A stretch of 64,000 nucleotides of DNA from Arctopsyche grandis (taxonomy: Eukaryota; Arthropoda; Insecta; Trichoptera; Hydropsychidae): NCBI RefSeq assembly GCF_051622035.1, contig NC_135360.1, forward strand, positions 1,670,001 through 1,734,000. The letters are read 5' to 3'. The position numbers and the translations under genes were made by a program. Each line of letters opens with the position of its first letter. The stretch's first letter is position 1. The notes beneath the pieces are model-generated. The model made no database searches. It saw only the letters and a program-made list of their open reading frames with translations, and had not been told where the DNA came from. Positions 1,441 to 48,226 of this stretch are shown here, piece by piece.

Positions 1441-4423
1441 TTTTATTATAATAATAATAATAATAATAATAATAGCTTTTATTCCAGACGATGAGGAGAA
1501 TAGTTCAATCCCCAACGCCCATATAAATAATATATAGATAATAAAAAAAAAGTATTGAAAAATAGTAAACAAAAAAATGAATAAATATATAAATATTACT
1601 GATAATAAATAATAATAATAATAAATAATAATAATAATTATAATTATAATAATAAATAAATAATAATACTATTAAGTCTAATAATAATAATTTAATGTCT
1701 ATTCAAGGCGGTCGGTGTAGCAGTTCCATCCATCGAACATACATACAATGAAGAATGCAAATCAGAAGATGCAGCAGCAAGAAGACAATTAGGCGATAAA
1801 AATATACGAAGACGTAGAGAGGCCGCTCTTATCCTGAGAATGGCTTCAAAGTGAGGCACATGCCCTTTTACAAACATTTGCGACGCGCTACAGCTCCTAG
1901 GTAACCCGAAAAGAGCACGGTAACAGTTGTTGTATTGTACCTTTATCTTCCTCATCGTCTCCCGCTTGTATCTGGTCCATAATTCACTAGTATAGAGGCT
2001 AGTACAAAAGGACATAAATAATTGTCTCTTAACCTCTACACTGGAGTGGAAAAATCGTCTAGCCAGCATATTTGCCCTTACACAAATGGCTCTTCTTTGT
2101 CTTTCGATGTCACGGTCATCAGATAGATCCTCCGTCAGCAAGTGTCCCAGATACTTGACTTCCCTAACAGTTTCAAGATTACGCCCATCTAAAATAATAT
2201 TGGGGACGAAATGAGGACCTCGACCGTATCGGAAAATCAATACCATGGATTTACTCGTATTATACCGCATATTATGTTCTGCAGCATAACTCGAGCAAAC
2301 TTCCAGGAGGCGATTCAGAGCTGACGGAGAAGGCGCCAAGATCACCATGTCATCCGCATAGCTGATGTGGTTACTGCATATTCCTCCTATGTGGCAACCA
2401 ACTCCAGTCTGTCGAAGGCGATGTGAAAGTTCATCCATGTAAAGGTTGAATAAGCCAGGAGACATTGACCCACCCTGTCTAACCCCGCACTTCAAAGAAG
2501 CGGGATCAGAGTATGAATTCCCCCAGCGTACATGGCTGAACTGATTCCGGTGCCAGGATGCTAAAAACCTCACGATTTGACTTGGAGCTCCCCTTTTTAA
2601 CAGTTTGGACCAAAGTAGATCATGATCCACTCGATCGAAGGCCTTGGATAAGTCTAGAAAACAGGCGTATACGGAAGTTTTTCGCGATGTATAAAAATCC
2701 ACTACCTGTTTTAAAGTGTAGATGGCCATGTCCGTCGACGAGTGCTTCTTGAATCCAAACTGCTCATCAGCTGACAAAAGGTAGCCACTTAATCTGCAAC
2801 TCAATATCTTCTCTAGAATTTTAGATAAAATGGTGGCTAGAGCAATAGGACGATAGCTGTCAATGACTGAAGCATCAAGCTTTGATGACTTGAGGACAGG
2901 AACAATAGTCGTCCTTGAAAACTCTTCAGGTACATGTTCATGCAAAATCATCACATTGAAAAGCCTTGCTAATATGATGAAGAAATTCTTACCACTATGC
3001 AGAACATGATCCGTACTAATGCTATCCCAACCAGTTGCTTTCCCTCCAGACATTGACCTTAACGCAGTTTCAACTTCGTCGCCAGTTATGACGAAAAACG
3101 AATCTTCTGAGATAGACATAACCACATCAGCCCTGCCCATCAAATCCGAAACAGACTCTTTGAAATGCTTGCTAAACATATTGGCAATACTCCGATGGTT
3201 GTAGATTCCATTAATATGTACCGGGATAGTACTGTTTACTGCTAAAATAGCATTTGTAGCATTCCAAAATTGCTTGAAGTCTTTATTTCTATGATATAGA
3301 GCTATCTTGTCCATAACACTTTGATTAGCGTTGCGTTGACATACCTTCAGTGCAATTTTAAAAACATGCCTAGCATGACGACGTCGGTCGGCAATTTCTC
3401 CTGTAGAAGGGCGGCCCGCTGCAACCCATTCTATGAATGAGTTCCTCGAATCTAGGTAGCATGCCGCTACCTGATCGTTCCAACCAGGAACCACCTTAAA
3501 CCTCTTATCATTATACTGATGCGTTGGTGAAGAAAATGATGTCGAAGCGGCATTTCTCAACACATCTACAATCGAATGATAGAGGTAATTAATGGAAGTC
3601 CTATGCTCAGTATCAGTGCATTTTCTCAAATTGCAATTTTGAAGATTATTATCACATACAATACGATCCAAAGAGTTAATTATTTCTAGTGAATATGCAA
3701 TTATGTCGGAAGGGTTGCGTGGCATCCAAGTTGCAATGTCGCGATGACGATAATTGTGATATGGTCTCGAACGATTCAGACCATTCGAAGCAATTATAAC
3801 AAAAAGCGGACGATGATCTGACCATACTACGTCAGTGTGGTCTTTAAAATCTTGAATGGATCCTAAAATTGCTTCAGATGTGATACAGTGATCCAACCAC
3901 CGTAAGGAGCCGTGTGCGTCACTAACATATATAAATGTATCAGATGGAAGACACGCATAATCTTGAATCCTCAAATGATTTTCTTCACAGAAGGATAGTA
4001 GTTCGTTCCAAAATAAAGAGCCAGGATGAGCATTAAAATCACCCATGACAATAAAATTCGAGCGACTATGATCTTCGATAGCGGCATTAACAATGCCCAA
4101 GCAAGTAGTAAAATCTTCAAAGTTTTCTGGTTTTGCCGTCGGCATATATACATTAATAATTAACAATTCAATATGACCTTGCTGAAGTTTAATGCAAAGT
4201 AATCTCGGATTAAGAAGGTCAATTTGGGTGACTGTAAAAGTTTTTTTGTACAATATACCAACACCACCATAGGGACGTCCAACTAAAGGTCCATTACCGC
4301 TGTCCACTGCAGATGTACCAGTGCCTTCAAATGATGGATGGAATCTTCTCAAGTATACAGTTTCAAATTCTAAAAACCATGTTTCTTGTAACAAAATAAC
4401 GTCGGCCTCATTACATAGTTAGG
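1440..4423 (-). mobile_element. 5'-truncated CR1/L2/Rex1-like LINE
   Basis: The insertion lies between two halves of a hAT transposase. Its coding strand is minus. The 3' end (low coordinates) finishes in an (ATT)n microsatellite at 1443-1474, the kind of short-repeat tail used by CR1/L2-type LINEs rather than a poly(A). At the 5' side similarity starts at the endonuclease motif (about 4423), so ORF1 and the 5' UTR are missing. The clade assignment is from motif style only. Confidence 0.7.
1692..4394 (-). CDS. LINE ORF2: APE endonuclease plus reverse transcriptase
   Basis: This open frame of 900 codons has no internal stop. Residues 1-200 form an AP-type endonuclease: the start matches the LLQETW motif (one further codon run upstream, before an in-frame stop near 4430, completes NEADVILLQETW), GDFNAH is at about 118 and SDHRPLF at about 192. 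The reverse transcriptase covers about 490-750: SYRPIAL near 513, FLDLSKAFDRVDHDLLW near 579, GVRQGGSMSPGLFN near 637 and the catalytic YADD at 679-682. A C-terminal part (about 760-900) has the usual KVQYNNCYRALFGLPR-like segment. It would nick DNA and reverse-transcribe its own RNA during target-primed insertion. The frame is intact but the element is 5' truncated, so the copy itself is probably dead; the intact frame suggests recent insertion. Confidence 0.85.
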   Translation of the reverse strand: MLQETWFLEFETVYLRRFHPSFEGTGTSAVDSGNGPLVGRPYGGVGILYKKTFTVTQIDLLNPRLLCIKLQQGHIELLIINVYMPTAKPENFEDFTTCLGIVNAAIEDHSRSNFIVMGDFNAHPGSLFWNELLSFCEENHLRIQDYACLPSDTFIYVSDAHGSLRWLDHCITSEAILGSIQDFKDHTDVVWSDHRPLFVIIASNGLNRSRPYHNYRHRDIATWMPRNPSDIIAYSLEIINSLDRIVCDNNLQNCNLRKCTDTEHRTSINYLYHSIVDVLRNAASTSFSSPTHQYNDKRFKVVPGWNDQVAACYLDSRNSFIEWVAAGRPSTGEIADRRRHARHVFKIALKVCQRNANQSVMDKIALYHRNKDFKQFWNATNAILAVNSTIPVHINGIYNHRSIANMFSKHFKESVSDLMGRADVVMSISEDSFFVITGDEVETALRSMSGGKATGWDSISTDHVLHSGKNFFIILARLFNVMILHEHVPEEFSRTTIVPVLKSSKLDASVIDSYRPIALATILSKILEKILSCRLSGYLLSADEQFGFKKHSSTDMAIYTLKQVVDFYTSRKTSVYACFLDLSKAFDRVDHDLLWSKLLKRGAPSQIVRFLASWHRNQFSHVRWGNSYSDPASLKCGVRQGGSMSPGLFNLYMDELSHRLRQTGVGCHIGGICSNHISYADDMVILAPSPSALNRLLEVCSSYAAEHNMRYNTSKSMVLIFRYGRGPHFVPNIILDGRNLETVREVKYLGHLLTEDLSDDRDIERQRRAICVRANMLARRFFHSSVEVKRQLFMSFCTSLYTSELWTRYKRETMRKIKVQYNNCYRALFGLPRSCSASQMFVKGHVPHFEAILRIRAASLRLRIFLSPNCLLAAASSDLHSSLYVCSMDGTATPTALNRH

Positions 4424-4960: not shown

Positions 4961-5115
4961 ATTTATTTGTAGATATTATGGTATGAAAATTATTTTTTTA
5001 TTAAAAAGTTTTGGCGCCTCCCCTGGCAATAGTCCGCGCTTCTCCAGGGAGGCGCGCCTCCCAGTTTGGAAACCACTGATGTACGTAGTAACAGTAGATG
5101 AAGTTTTGTGATCAT

Positions 5116-5197
5116 TAGAGGTAGGATAGTCACAGTGCTATCCATTGTTCGGCAAACCTTTAACAATGCATTTACAACCTTTGAACAACCTTAAACA
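5116..5197 (+). mobile_element. hAT mini-element (TAGAGGTAGGA family), 82 bp
   Basis: It starts TAGAGGTAGGATAGTCAC and is flanked by GTGATCAT (5108-5115) and GTGTTCAT (5198-5205), an 8-bp duplication with one mismatch. Comparison with the uninterrupted copy near 38690 confirms that these bases are an insertion. Relatives lie at 45339-45705 and 51055-51156. The right end lacks the CCGGTGACTA terminus of the other copies. Confidence 0.6.
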
Positions 5198-6420
5198 GTG
5201 TTCATGCGAAAATTCGAACTCGGGATTTTGACTGATTCGAACTCAGAATCGATCACTGATCACGTTTTAATGATGTAGAAAAAAGTGTGTGCCTGTATTT
5301 CTGTGTGTTTGTGTGTCTGTGTGTCTGTGTATTTTGGGGATTTTTTGAACACCGTTAGTCATAGAACTGAAACTTAGTATCCGTTTCTGAAATTCTTATC
5401 GACATGACATAAATTTTTTTCCAATTTTTAGGTTGACCGGAAATGATACCTCCCCTTAAAGGTGTCCTCTTTTTTATGTTTTTGAATTCAATTATCTCCC
5501 AAACCGCTGACTGCATCGGACTAAAGTTTTTTTACATGTAATAGAAATAATAATACTTATAAACTTATATATTTTAAATATTTTTATCTAAACCGGAAGT
5601 AGTACTTTTACTCTAGAGAATCGAGGTTTTTTTATGTTTTTCTCAGAAACTGTTCGGTTTATTCAACTGAAATTTCATATCTAGAAGTTTAAGCTTAATA
5701 ACAAGTGATTTCTAAAATTTGGTAAGTATCTGTCAACCATAAGTGGTAGTTTACTCTTGTTCGATTTTTCTTCCACTATTTTTTTCGACCCTTTAAACAT
5801 GTGTGATCTTCACGAAAAAATTTAAGTATAATTCTTGTATCAATGTGATGAAAATAAAATGTCACTAAATTTTATTAACCGGAAGTGGGATTTTTTCCTC
5901 TTTGAAAGGTCAAAGATGTTGTGCCCACTACTCTGTCCACACTCCTCAACGTATCAAGCTGAAAATTTATATTTCTATTCTTTATGTACTAACTTAGAGC
6001 TGATAAGGTTTTGGTCAGAATTCGTTAACCGGAAGTACTATTTTTTTTAAAACAATATTTCATTATTTTATTTTGACCTTAAATTATTTTTATTTTCTTG
6101 ATATTCGATATAATATAATACTGATAGTGATTTTAAGTAATTAAAAAAATTTGAACAAAATCTGACAACCGGAAGTAGAACTTTTGTCTTGTGCAAGTTT
6201 CCATACATTTGCACTCAATTTGTATCGAAAATGCTGTCATTCATAGTTATAAGTATTTCATAATCTGTCTATACGGTTCAATATCGAATTTTGTTTTGTA
6301 ACCTTCTTATATTCCTCAAATACATAGATAAAGTCATGGGTCGGTCACATCCGAATTTTTTTTTACGTCTCCAGTATGGCACGGTTTATTTATTAAAAAA
6401 AATGAATCATCTTTTCAGAT

Positions 6421-7861: not shown

Positions 7862-8518
<657 letters not shown>

Positions 8519-25879: not shown

Positions 25880-26405
25880 CACTGGCGGATCTAAGGGGGG
25901 TGCAATGGGTCCCATGGCACCCACTTTGGATGAATTTAATTTCATATATAATTTTGATTTTTCATATTTAAATATGCATATTATTCACAATATATTTATA
26001 TTTTTACTAATATATTTTAGTTCCATGTTCCCCTTATTGTTTTTGCATATCTGCAATACCCTTTCAGGTAGGGGGGCTAAGTTTAATGCTAGATGAAAGT
26101 AACCGTTCGTACTGTTCAAATTCTCATAATTTACTCGAGAAATCGAGATTTTGACTGATTCGAACAGAAAAAATGTCTGTGTGCCTGTGTGTAGGTGTAT
26201 TTTGGTGATTTTTTTGAACAACGTTTGTCCTATCAAACTGAAACTTAGTATCGGTTACTGAAATTCTTATCGAAACGACGTACATTTTTTTTGCAGTTTA
26301 CTCTTTTTCGATTATTCTCATCACATATATCTTGTATCAATGTGATGAAAATAAAAATCAATTCCAAAATGCCCCCACCTTGACCATTTTCTGGATCCGC
26401 TAGTG
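25880..26405. mobile_element. hAT-type element carrying a ladder-repeat fragment
   Basis: The inverted ends are CACTRGCGGATC. The flanks CGATGGCA (25872-25879) and GGATGGCA (26406-26413) form an 8-bp duplication with one mismatch. Between about 26105 and 26370 lies a truncated copy of the ACCGGAAGT-ladder repeat: its left end plus a TTTACTCTTTTTCGATT segment, with the boxes deleted. Confidence 0.7.
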
Positions 26406-31689: not shown

Positions 31690-32118
31690 ATTTTTTATGT
31701 ACCAGATAAGGTTTTGATGAATAGAAAATGAAATAAAAGTAAATAAAACGGAAGTACATACATATGTAGTATTTTTTTTAATAATATTTCATTATTTTAT
31801 TTTGACTTTTTAAATTATTATCTTATTGGTATTTTATTCTCATAATATGTATTTCTAGTGATATTAAGTTATAAAAAAACTTTGAACAGAATCTGACAAC
31901 CGAAAGTAGAATTTTTGGCATTTTCAGTGTCAATTTCGGGGTCAATTTCAGTGTAAATTTCTCTACTGTAGCGCTTAAAATTGTATAGAAAATGCTTTCT
32001 TAGATGGTATGTGCGAACGTGTATGTGTGTGACATTATCAAATTTTGTTTTCAATACTTCTTAGATTCCTCAAATACACAGATAAAGTCATGGGTTGGTC
32101 ATATCCAAATTTTTTTTC
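31690..32118 (+). mobile_element. ACCGGAAGT-ladder repeat, truncated copy
   Basis: Only the right end is present: boxes ACGGAAGT (31750) and ACCGAAAGT (31897), 148 bp apart. These are followed by the family end, ACACAGATAAAGTCATGGGT, and a poly(T). Orientation is as in copy A. Confidence 0.7.
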
Positions 32119-35848: not shown

Positions 35849-36321
35849 GTCATCACTGGCAAAACGCATTGATCGAAAACCTTTTTCTTTAGAGAGGGGC
35901 ATTTTTGATTTAAAAAAAAATTCATTCGTCCAAATGCACTCCATCCTAATTTCATACGTCTCATTATCTCTTCATCTTTACTAACGGACATGTTAATTAT
36001 TTGACCTGAATATAAATATTTTTTTACTACTTCTACTGGTTTTTCATCTAATGAGATGCTTACTTTAATCTAATATATAATTTGGAAAGAGACTTTGTAT
36101 ATATGTATGTATGTATGTACATATGTATCCTTCGTTCGTAGAAATCCGTGACGTTATCGAACAAATAATTCACTTTTTTCCGATTCAAAGTTACCGGGGG
36201 CGTAGGCGCCGAGGGCAAAGCCCTAGGGCTCCGCTCCCTAGGGGGTGCAGACGCCGGAGGTGTACATATATTTTTTTATTAGAGACTTACTATATATGTT
36301 TGTTTGTTCGTGACAGTCAAT

Positions 36322-38742
36322 TTAATAAAAAAAATTCGGATGTGACCAACCCATGACTTTATCTATGTATTTGATGAATATAAGAAGGTTACAAAACAAA
36401 ATTCGATATTGAACTGATGACTATGATAGCGATACAAATTGAGCGCAAATGTATGGAAACTTGCACAAAACAAAAGATCTACTTCCGGTTGTCAGATTTT
36501 GTTCAAATTTTTTTTATTACTAAAAATCACTATCAGTATTATACTCATTAAATATCAAGAAAATAAAAATAATTTTAAAGGTCAAAATAAAATAATGAAA
36601 TATTGTTTTAAAAAAAAATACTACTTCCGGTTTACAAATTCTGACCAAAACCCTTTCAGCTCTAAGTTAGTACATAAAGGATAGAAATATAAATTTTCAG
36701 CTTAATACGTTCAGGGGTGCGGACAGAGTAGTGGGCACAACATTTTTGACCTTTCTACGAGGAAAAAAATCCCACTTCTGGTTCATTAAATAAAGTAATT
36801 TTTTTTTTATTTTTACTTAAAATCACTATTTTTATTATACACATTAAATATCAAGAAGCTTAAAACAATTTAAAAGGTCAAAATAAAATAATGAAAAAAT
36901 AATGAAATATTGTTTTTAAAAAAAATACTACTTCCGGTTTACGAATTCTGACCAAAACCCTACCAGCTCTAAGTTAGTACATAAAGGATAGAAATATAAA
37001 TTTTCAGCTTAATACGTTCAGGGGTGCGGACAGAGTAGTGGGCACAACATTTTTGACCTTTCTACGAGGAAAAAAATCCCACTTCTGGTTCATTAAATAA
37101 AGTAATTTTTTTTTTATTTTTACTTAAAATCACTATTTTTATTATACACATTAAATATCAAGAAGCTTAAAACAATTTAAAAGGTCAAAATAAAATAATG
37201 AAAAAATAATGAAATATTGTTTTTAAAAAAAATACTACTTCCGGTTTACGAATTCTGACCAAAACCCTACCAGCTCTAAGTTAGTACATAAAGGATAGAA
37301 ATATAAATTTTCAGCTTAATACGTTCAGGGGTGCGGACAGAGTAGTGGGCACAACATTTTTGACCTTTCTACGAGGAAAAAAATCCCACTTCTGGTTCAT
37401 TAAATAAAGTAATTTTTTTTTTATTTTTACTTAAAATCACTATTTTTATTATACACATTAAATATCAAGAAGCTTAAAACAATTTAAAAGGTCAAAATAA
37501 AATAATGAAAAAATAATGAAATATTGTTTTTAAAAAAAATACTACTTCCGGTTTACGAATTCTGACCAAAACCCTACCAGCTCTAAGTTAGTACATAAAG
37601 GATAGAAATATAAATTTTCAGCTTAATACGATCAGGGGTGCGGACAGAGTAGTGGGCACAACATTTTTGACCTTTCTACGAGGAAAAAAATCCCACTTCC
37701 GGTTCATTAAATTAAGTAATTTTTTTTTTATTTTTACTTAAATCACTATTTTTATTATACACATTAAATATCAAGAAGCTTAAAACAATTTAAAAGGTCA
37801 AAATAAAATAATGAAAAAATAATGAAATATTGTTTTTAAAAAAAATACTACTTCCGGTTTACGAATTCTGACCAAAACCCTACCAGCTCTAAGTTAGTAC
37901 ATAAAGGATAGAAATATAAATTTTCAGCTTAATACGTTCAGGGGTGTGGACAGAGTAGTGGGCACAACATTTTCAACCTTTCTAAGTGAAAAAAATCCCA
38001 CTTCCGGTTTATAAAATTTAATAATTTTTTTTCATTTTCATCAAATTACAACAAGAATTATACTTGAATTTTTTTGTGACGAACACACATGTTTAAGGGG
38101 TCGAAAAAAATAGTGGAAGAAAAATCGAACAAGAGTAAACTGCTACTTCCGGTTGACGGATGCTAACTAAATTTTATAATTAACTTGGTATTAAACTTAA
38201 ACTTCTAGATATGAAATTTCAGTTCAATAAACCAAAAGGTTTCTGAAAAAAACATAAAAAACTTCGATTCTCTAGAGTAAAAGTACTACTTCCGGTTCAG
38301 ATAGAAATATTTAAAAAATATGAAGTTATAAAAACTATTATTTGTATCATATTTAAAAAAAATTCAGTCCGATTCAGTTAGTGGTTTGGGAGATAATTGA
38401 ATTCAAAAACTTAAAAAAAGAGGACACCTATAAGGCGAGGTACCATTTCCGGTCAACTTAAAAATTTGAAAAAAATTTACGTCGTGTCGATAAGAATTTC
38501 AGTAACCGATACTAAGTTTCAGTTCGATAGGACTAACGGTGTTAAAAATATCCCCAAAATACACACCCACACAGACACACACACAGACACACACACACAC
38601 ACACACACACACATTTTTTCTAGATCATGAAAACGTGATCAGTGATCGATTCTGAGTTCGAATCAGTCAAAATCTCGAGTTCGAATTTTCGCATGATCAC
38701 AAAACTTCATCTATTGTTACTACGTACATAGATAAAGTAAAA
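36322..38742 (-). repeat. ACCGGAAGT-ladder repeat, copy B (14 boxes; 307-bp dimer array)
   Basis: On the plus strand the boxes read ACTTCCGGT or close variants (some ACTTCTGGT; 38445 is ATTTCCGGT) at 36481, 36623, 36773, 36930, 37081, 37237, about 37388, 37544, 37695, 37850, 38000, 38145, 38288 and 38445. Spacing is 142-157 bp. Between 36623 and 37850 the array is a nearly identical dimer with period 307, 307, 307, 306. The outer monomers are diverged and match copy A in reverse order. The terminal motifs are ACTTTATCTATGTA (36355) and TACATAGATAAAGT (38727). It is non-coding. Confidence 0.9.
38561..38613. repeat. (AC)n microsatellite
   Basis: AC repeats with AGAC and CCAC interruptions. It lies inside ladder copy B and corresponds to a GTGTGTCTGTGT tract in copy A (about 5295-5330). 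Confidence 0.9.
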
Positions 38743-38869
38743 ACAAACGAGTATTCAAATAAATTTATATAAAATAAAACTTTTGAAATAAATTTAATAA
38801 AATGTTTACTATGTATTAGATTAGTTATGTTTAAGCGGTTTATATTATAAATACCGAGCGAATTATTGA

Positions 38870-46962: not shown

Positions 46963-48059
46963 CTAGCTGTACCCGGCTTCGCTCGGTATTTGTAATATAA
47001 ACCGCTTAAACATGACTAATCTAATACTAAGCCCGCTTTAAAGGTCAAGGACCCTTAACCCTTAAAGCCCTCAACATGATGCCACGACCCCCCCCCCTGA
47101 CGAATACAGTCTAAGAGACCCTTTCGTCGGAGAACGAGACGGTTGTTCATGAATATCGCACAAGAACAACCGCACATCACTGTTCTATCAAAAAAAATCA
47201 CACTGTACATAACCAAGTACAAAATAAACAACAACGCATGAACACATAAAGCGCGCATGCGTTAGGAAATATTACCTGAAATGTGCCGTGCAAATGCACG
47301 CACACCTCAAGTAAACATACATGCATGTATGTTTATGCGTGCATAAGGACGCATACACACACAAAAACAACAAATATATACACACACCTAAACAGCAAAC
47401 GCACACACACACACACACACATTCACAGAATAAAAAAAAATAAAAAATGAACTCATAAATGCTTTTGCAATTAAGTGGAGAAGTAGCATCCAGGAGAACA
47501 CAGCTTCCCAAAGCATTCCGCGAACTTTTCATGACTACTCTAATAGTAAACATTTTACTAAATTTATTTGAATAGTTTTATTTTATATAAATTTATTTGA
47601 ATACTCATTTGTTTTTTTTATTAAATTGACTGTCACGAACAAACAAACATATAGTAAGTCTCTTATAAAAAATTATATGTACACCCCCGGCGTCTGCGCT
47701 CCTTAGGGCTCCGCCCTCGGCGTCTGCGCCCCCTAGAGCTCCGACCTCGGCGTCTGCGCCCCTTAGGGCTCCGCCCTCGGCCTAAGGGGCAGAGCCCTAG
47801 GGCTTCGTCCCTGACATCTGTGTCTCCTAGGGCTCCACCCCCGACGTCTGCACCCCCAAGAAACCCCCCCCGGACGTCTGCTAGGGCTTCGCCCTCCGCG
47901 CCTACGCCCCCGGGAACTTCGAATACTTTGAATGGGAAAAAAGCGAATTATTTGTTCGATGACATCACGGATTTCTACGAACGAAGGATACATACATACA
48001 TACATGCATACATACAGACATATGTATATACAAAGTCTCTTTCCAAATTATATATTAGA
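46963..48059 (-). mobile_element. Helitron, about 1.1 kb, with GC-rich minisatellite
   Basis: On the minus strand it starts TCTAATATATAATTTGGAAA after a host A (48060 side) and ends CGAAGCCGGGTACAGCTAG before a host T. The centre at about 47690-47930 consists of GGCGTCTGCGCC and CCTTAGGGCTCCGCCCTCGG repeats. A block at about 47030-47530 has no counterpart in the copy at 36069 and may be a further insertion. No Rep/helicase is encoded. Confidence 0.75.
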
Positions 48060-48226
48060 TTTATGTGGATATGAGTACATACTTATGCATATTGTAAGAA
48101 ATTACATTCACGATTTTTCTTTCTCGAGTTTCTTGAGAGATTTCACGACGTTAAAAAAATACTAATTAAAGTTGTTTTGAGAACGAATACGAGTCTTCTT
48201 CTTCTTTTTGTAATGCCGAATCCGTA

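Follow-up and report, generated by a model that had tools for sequence, protein, structure and literature searches.

Introduction

The elements closest to the one described here belong to the DINE-1 and HINE groups. DINE-1 is described as having 13-bp subTIRs, of which the 5′ one sits at the edge of the element, next to a partial inverted repeat, and the 3′ one lies further in; block A contains a GTCY/GT-rich microsatellite, and the central repeats vary, with units of about 50-500 bp. The element inserts into T-rich sequence, has no open frame and reaches a high copy number (PMC2374699). The HINEs of a mite, a mosquito and other species are deletion-type non-coding elements with 12-15 bp subTIRs, 2-5 T at their edges, T-rich targets, a 3′ palindrome, and tandem or simple repeats or microsatellites inside; in the mite the 3′ subTIR lies 38-60 bp from the end and the palindrome measures 5-10 bp (PMC4067079). 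Central repeats of HINEs (Cg_HINE) make up the most abundant dispersed satellite-like arrays of the Pacific oyster, and the commonest monomers of arrays in that genome are 160-180 bp long (PMC7492417). A further helitron-type element, ISX/ISXR of Drosophila miranda, spreads an MSL site, one per element, with selection on the inserted copies (PMC4384637).

Here we examine a ladder of 9-bp boxes in a 64,000-nucleotide stretch of Arctopsyche grandis DNA (the window), together with the repeat that carries it and the copies of that repeat elsewhere in the genome.

Results

The Box Ladder

The ladder consists of 14 boxes on the + strand, from 36481 to 38453 (first base of the first box to last base of the last). 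Ten of the boxes are exactly ACTTCCGGT and four have one mismatch, these being ACTTCTGGT three times (36774, 37081, and 37388) and ATTTCCGGT once (38445). Successive spacings are 142, 151, 156, 151, 156, 151, 156, 151, 155, 150, 145, 143, and 157 bp. Over the whole window there are 25 matches with at most one mismatch against an expectation of 8.26 (sd 2.90), a number reached in none of 100 shuffles; scans of the window for tRNAs and Rfam families gave no match. The 14 boxes at 142-157 bp spacing noted in a first-pass annotation were therefore confirmed in place, with the qualification that they are not independent, because ten of them lie in a recently expanded array of a 307-bp dimer (Table 1), in which the ACTTCTGGT defect was multiplied three times along with the dimer, and only seven distinct monomer types remain.

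Table 1. Positions of the element, its parts, and its copies in the window.
Feature	Position	Strand	Basis or remark
Copy A, whole ladder-carrying transposon	36335..38738	− (DINE-1/Helentron orientation; boxes on +)	Ends common to other full copies; empty site of surrounding repeat
A5 (T5 on −), 5′ edge	38739..38743	−	Exactly A5 in 12 of 17 full copies
5′ subTIR ACTTTATCTATGTA, abutting T5	38725..38738	−	Full-copy consensus; inverted-match search
Block A, 5′ end	38614..38738	−	Consensus of full copies
CA/GT microsatellite with CAGA/GTCT units (GT with GTCT on −)	38561..38613		Microsatellite type as in DINE-1
Recent tandem expansion, 307-bp dimer of two ~150-bp monomers	36508..38032		TRF: 5.0 copies, 96% matches
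Block B, 3′ end, weak GGGT..ACCC hairpin and internal subTIR	36335..36480	−	Full-copy consensus; fold
3′ subTIR TACATAGATAAAGT, 21 nt from T-run	36356..36369	−	14-bp exact inverted match
A8 (T8 on −), 3′ edge, target run and possibly element	36327..36334	−	Empty paralogues A8, A11
Copy B, older, ~85% identical	5079..6355	+	Boxes on − at 6176, 6036, 5886, 5744 (two mismatches), 5600, 5444
Copy C, old partial copy	31766..32117	+	Two one-mismatch boxes on −, the second at 31755-31747, just past the aligned part
Scrap of region after last box	26174..26291	+	89% identical over 118 bp
Empty site, paralogue of surrounding repeat without transposon	47612..47621	−	Copy A flanks continuous there

Copies in the Window and the Genome

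That the ladder lies within a transposable repeat, as had been proposed, is borne out by its occurrence in an interspersed 2.4-kb element with fixed ends. The window contains one whole copy (copy A), an older and an old partial copy (copies B and C) and a scrap (Table 1), and the three longer copies have their start base in common. Copy A is hosted by another repeat (36067-36334 and 38732-38862), whose other copy at 47530-48061 (−) has inside it a GC-rich 30-bp minisatellite (47684-47781). In copy B, foreign sequence interrupts block A (about 5079 and 5115-5198), which is then cut short by a sequence that starts CAGTGGTTTCCAAACTGGGAGGCGCG on the − strand and looks like a hAT-type end. Adjoining copy B at 1692-4418 (−) is a LINE with a 908-codon open frame, apparently intact over that stretch, with reverse transcriptase (PF00078, 3.7e-37) and endonuclease domains. 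A further frame at 7862-8518 (+) had no match in a Pfam search; it reads like the animal OB-fold subunit SOSS-B/NABP.

The genome (475.7 Mb, 189 contigs) was searched with the 3′ part of the element, and 40 of 4871 first-look candidates were scored. Of the 41 matches listed, one is the window itself, 39 are long and end between query bases 601 and 619 (most at 604), and one measures 57 bp. Regions were fetched over 29 of the 39 long matches, the window's own excluded. Copy numbers are lower bounds. At least 23 elements had both ends located (17 and 6 in two sets), two of them in the window. Full copies, defined by the presence of the head, have a spacing series in common (142, 151, then a varying number of 155/151 steps, followed by 150, 145, 143, and 157); departures from it occur at decayed boxes and at lost or inserted pieces. 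The regular spacing predicted for other copies was thus found, but it does not serve as evidence of function, equal spacing among recent copies being simple inheritance. At one locus (L026) the series of boxes is broken by a 1713-bp step, and both this locus and L016 have GC-rich minisatellite frames of type GGPSLMGRSPMGLKRGRHKGRSPVGPR.

At two loci whole elements follow one another head to tail, and each junction has a single A5. One of these (L010) has a unit without a located head and with 11 boxes in its ladder, followed by two full units of 12 boxes, and the other (L072) has a unit with a partial head and 8 boxes, followed by a full unit of 12 boxes.

Structure of the Element

Read on the − strand, the order of parts is T5, subTIR, block A, GT/GTCT microsatellite, box monomers, block B with the second subTIR, and T-run. 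The family of copies is built like DINE-1/HINE elements, i.e., as a non-autonomous Helentron, and would be moved by rolling-circle enzymes made elsewhere. Its subTIRs form an exact 14-bp pair, within the 12-15 bp range of HINEs (13 bp in DINE-1), and none of 5000 shuffles produced such a match. Within the first 35 nt, the 5′ subTIR and the bases inside it fold into a 13-pair stem with one bulge, corresponding to the partial inverted repeat that DINE-1 has beside its 5′ subTIR, and the 3′ hairpin has 4-5 pairs (-2.2 kcal/mol with DNA parameters). There is no open frame of 150 or more amino acids within copy A or copy B. As in HINEs and DINE-1, the central tandem repeats vary in number, with 5 to 14 boxes (at most one mismatch) per full copy.

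The targets of the element are T-runs, in line with the T-rich targets (at least two T on each side) of HINEs and DINE-1. The left A-run is 5-11 long in all 17 full copies, and where the right run is other than A5 it measures 6, 7, 3, or 0 (one base changed) or belongs to one copy that is cut short. In nine clean paralogous comparisons covering three insertions, empty sites have A8-A11 and occupied sites A8-A10 plus A5; a tenth comparison (L015 vs. L012) was not clean, and the unit-against-unit rows of L010 were excluded. Since A5 is a homopolymer, these comparisons are compatible with its being either part of the element or a 5-bp target duplication, a feature that HINEs and DINE-1 lack. In the latter case an element flanked by A5 at either end would suit a MITE-like cut-and-paste type duplicating AAAAA, and an A-run target with a CA-rich tail would also fit a non-autonomous retroelement. 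We nonetheless regard a carrier of either class as improbable, based on a start that all 17 full copies share, where a LINE or SINE would be expected to vary in 5′ truncation and keep a fixed 3′ end (the count covers copies with a located head; five recent loci had no head in the stretch read and one more had a partial head), the internal position of the second inverted repeat, the single A5 common to units in whole-element tandem arrays, and the DINE-1-type order of the parts. The 3′ end of an RTE-type LINE, a class whose tails we take to be similar to that of the element, was set aside on account of the inverted repeats at both ends, the common start, and the whole-element tandem arrays.

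Search for an Autonomous Partner

Matches to the Rep domain PF14214 in the genome amount to 16 rows. Of the Rep loci a single long one was read, C13, and others in part. Its open frame of 836 codons includes the motif VEFQMRGSPHEH (RGSP type) and matches PF14214 at 2.3e-24; the S in this motif is of the Helentron type according to the available part of PMC4067079. The locus also has a PIF1 helicase match (6e-21) and a sub-threshold match to Peptidase_C48; its endonuclease-like frame had no Pfam match, and no second subTIR was found there with up to two mismatches. A ladder copy of eight boxes ends directly before the C13 Rep frame, making this Helentron a candidate partner. This candidacy was not upheld: a relative at C10 runs on upstream from that point into different sequence, and between ladder and Rep remnants at C3 lies a stretch that by eye resembles a LINE reverse transcriptase, so that the ladder copy beside the C13 Rep looks inserted. 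The stretches upstream of Rep remnants at C7, C10, C5, and C6 contained no ladder. Helitron- and Helentron-like Rep remnants also occur in a large tandem array with a 9,032-bp period at C3:20.695-20.738 Mb (loci L030-L033, L035-L037, L041-L043, and L047-L049).

Conservation of the Box Between Monomer Types

Consensus sequences of the seven monomer types were built from 187 monomers, hits covering less than 80% of a monomer being dropped. To keep the cutting point from favoring the box, six of the seven were cut at a distance from it, the exception being monomer M1, which starts 10 bases before its box. In the alignment of the seven types, all from one genome, the mean pairwise identity of the box window is 0.97 vs. 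a median of 0.39 for the 105 9-bp windows, and only a few bases outside the box identity has already dropped sharply. The proposal that the box is far better kept than its flanking bases consequently holds between monomer types. In the joined monomers the box occurs seven times with at most one mismatch, compared with no more than five for the best 9-mer with at least four G/C in 200 dinucleotide shuffles. Among 9-mers with at least four G/C, ACTTCCGGT is one of the commonest, and three others with seven occurrences are overlapping or one-base versions of it.

The consensus site of class I ETS factors is ACCGGAAGT, followed by a purine. This sequence is present exactly in six of the seven monomer consensus boxes, the seventh having ATTTCCGGT, and a purine comes next in all seven. 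The match to the class I ETS consensus named in the first-pass annotation is therefore exact as a sequence, and the box may be regarded as a putative site of this type.

It is conceivable that the box is no binding site and that the monomers are alike there through local history, either by short conversion tracts or by a repeat-forming breakpoint at the box. The monomers of copy A were indeed homogenized by the dimer expansion, defects included. However, the steep fall in identity close to the box is not what would be expected from conversion between monomers, and the bases that are kept match one known type of protein site, leading us to consider this explanation, too, a poor prospect.

Decay of the Box in Individual Insertions

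The box had also been predicted to be better conserved across individual copies, a comparison set beforehand as one that could refute the claim. The comparison covered 280 monomers taken from individual insertions, with the box masked during alignment. Of 315 monomer hits, 35 had been dropped (less than 75% of a monomer or fewer than seven box letters), and duplicate loci were excluded beforehand. Differences from the consensus were found at 60 of 2520 box positions (2.38%) vs. 1075 of 38330 other positions (2.80%), p = 0.23, and 49 of 103 other window offsets were conserved as well as the box, so that this prediction failed overall. A smaller set of monomers had the same outcome (38/1683 vs. 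667/25685, p = 0.43).

By divergence, the box changed at a higher rate than the rest in monomers less than 3% diverged (31/1791, 1.73%, vs. 326/27183, 1.20%; p = 0.059) and at a lower rate in those 3-8% diverged (11/567 vs. 415/8816, p = 0.0011; 11 of 103 offsets as low), a contrast exaggerated by the setting of the bins on non-box bases. The rate was also lower at 8-15% (4/117 vs. 175/1676, p = 0.01; 5 of 103 offsets as low), and above 15% (n = 5) the counts were 14/45 vs. 159/655 (p = 0.29). Another run with fewer loci and the same bins agreed. Old monomers are few (13 at 8-15% and 5 above 15%), as the long genome matches listed are all recent copies. The lower box rate in the 3-8% and 8-15% bins could reflect some upkeep after insertion, the data from old copies being thin.

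The box had further been read as part of a nucleosome-phasing array. The 10-bp AA/TT/TA periodicity between boxes has a power of 0.49 vs. a shuffle mean of 1.07, and phasing thus finds no support. That the host uses the copies as ETS sites, with one site to each nucleosome, in a regulatory or chromatin-phasing array is in our judgment very unlikely: the putative class I ETS match with a purine after the GGAA-type core in all seven monomer consensus sequences, the box spacing of about 150 bp, the lower box rate in the two bins above, and the precedent for host uptake of a helitron-type element (ISX, available part of PMC4384637) would accord with it, but the inserted copies lack an overall excess of box conservation, the 10-bp periodicity is absent, and a defective box was spread by the expanded dimer.

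Searches Outside the Insect Genome

The 3′-end pattern of the element was found in none of the viral contigs and none of the prokaryote genome contigs searched. A three-box ladder pattern (at least three ACTTCCGGT at about 150-bp steps) occurred in 11 viral, phage-like contigs (L061-L071). These were rejected as relatives; in all 11 the boxes are 9n bases apart and are enclosed by an open frame of at least about 190 codons, so they look like unrelated coding repeats.

Discussion

We believe it somewhat probable that the ladder represents the central repeats of a high-copy, non-coding, DINE-1/HINE-like transposon and that its box is a putative protein-binding site useful to the transposon. The retention of the box in every distinct monomer suggests that the need for it lies with the transposon rather than with the host. 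The ~150-bp monomers vary in number by local tandem duplication, as the range of box numbers per full copy illustrates, and each distinct monomer retains its 9-bp box while the remainder has drifted to the low window identity seen between types. Since the constraint is clear between monomer types and inserted copies do not show it in their overall decay, it appears to have acted on elements that were still moving, so that it would be visible between subfamilies and be followed by free decay after insertion; the pattern is that of our data and the cause is what we infer. The box itself would then be a repeated protein-binding site that serves transposition, a role proposed from its sequence.

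As to which protein might bind the box, our first candidate, put forward tentatively, is a host ETS-type activator that would keep the transposon accessible in the germ line; it takes first place because of the class I ETS consensus and the purine in all seven monomers. A protein of the transposition machinery is the second candidate and a rather doubtful one. It is feasible, if still less than likely, to go further and propose that DINE-1-like central repeats, until now deemed species-specific filler, form in this lineage a functional array of ETS-type sites, the transposon having been selected to recruit a host activator to each ~150-bp unit, which would hold it open for rolling-circle copying and would spread class I ETS sites genome-wide.

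The satellite-like middle of a DINE-1-like element with one constrained 9-bp signal amid drift is a clean case, in which the role of central repeats in transposition becomes testable. If an ETS factor does bind, each full copy would add about 5 to 14 sites to the genome and thereby raw material for regulatory change. Our searches of the open-access literature brought up no description of a box conserved among the central repeats of HINEs, and the family may already be named in Repbase-type libraries. For ACTTCCGGT together with transposable elements they returned only papers that are unrelated judging by title and the start of the abstract, and nothing was found there linking CCGGAAGT with Helitron or ETS tandem binding sites with Helentron.

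Compared by plan and not by sequence, the element resembles DINE-1/INE-1 of Drosophila, as far as the available part of that description extends, in its subTIRs (14 bp here vs. 13), which lie at the edge on the 5′ side and internally on the 3′ side, and in its partial inverted repeat, block A with a GT-rich microsatellite, variable central repeats, T-rich insertion, lack of an open frame, and high copy number; it differs in having a strictly kept 9-bp box in its central repeats and a weaker 3′ hairpin. With the HINEs, on the portion of the account available, it has in common the subTIR length, T strings at the edges, T-rich targets, internal microsatellite and tandem repeats, and the absence of coding sequence, whereas its 3′ subTIR is nearer the end (21 nt from the T-run vs. 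38-60 bp in the mite) and its palindrome is shorter. Like Cg_HINE of the Pacific oyster it carries satellite-like arrays as central repeats; a conserved box resembling a protein site is not mentioned in the available part of the oyster report (PMC7492417) and is present in the element here. Finally, it differs from ISX/ISXR, as represented in the part of that report at hand, in that each element has many boxes and its inserted copies give no clear indication of selection; the two are alike as helitron-type elements by which a protein-recognition motif, here a putative site, is spread.
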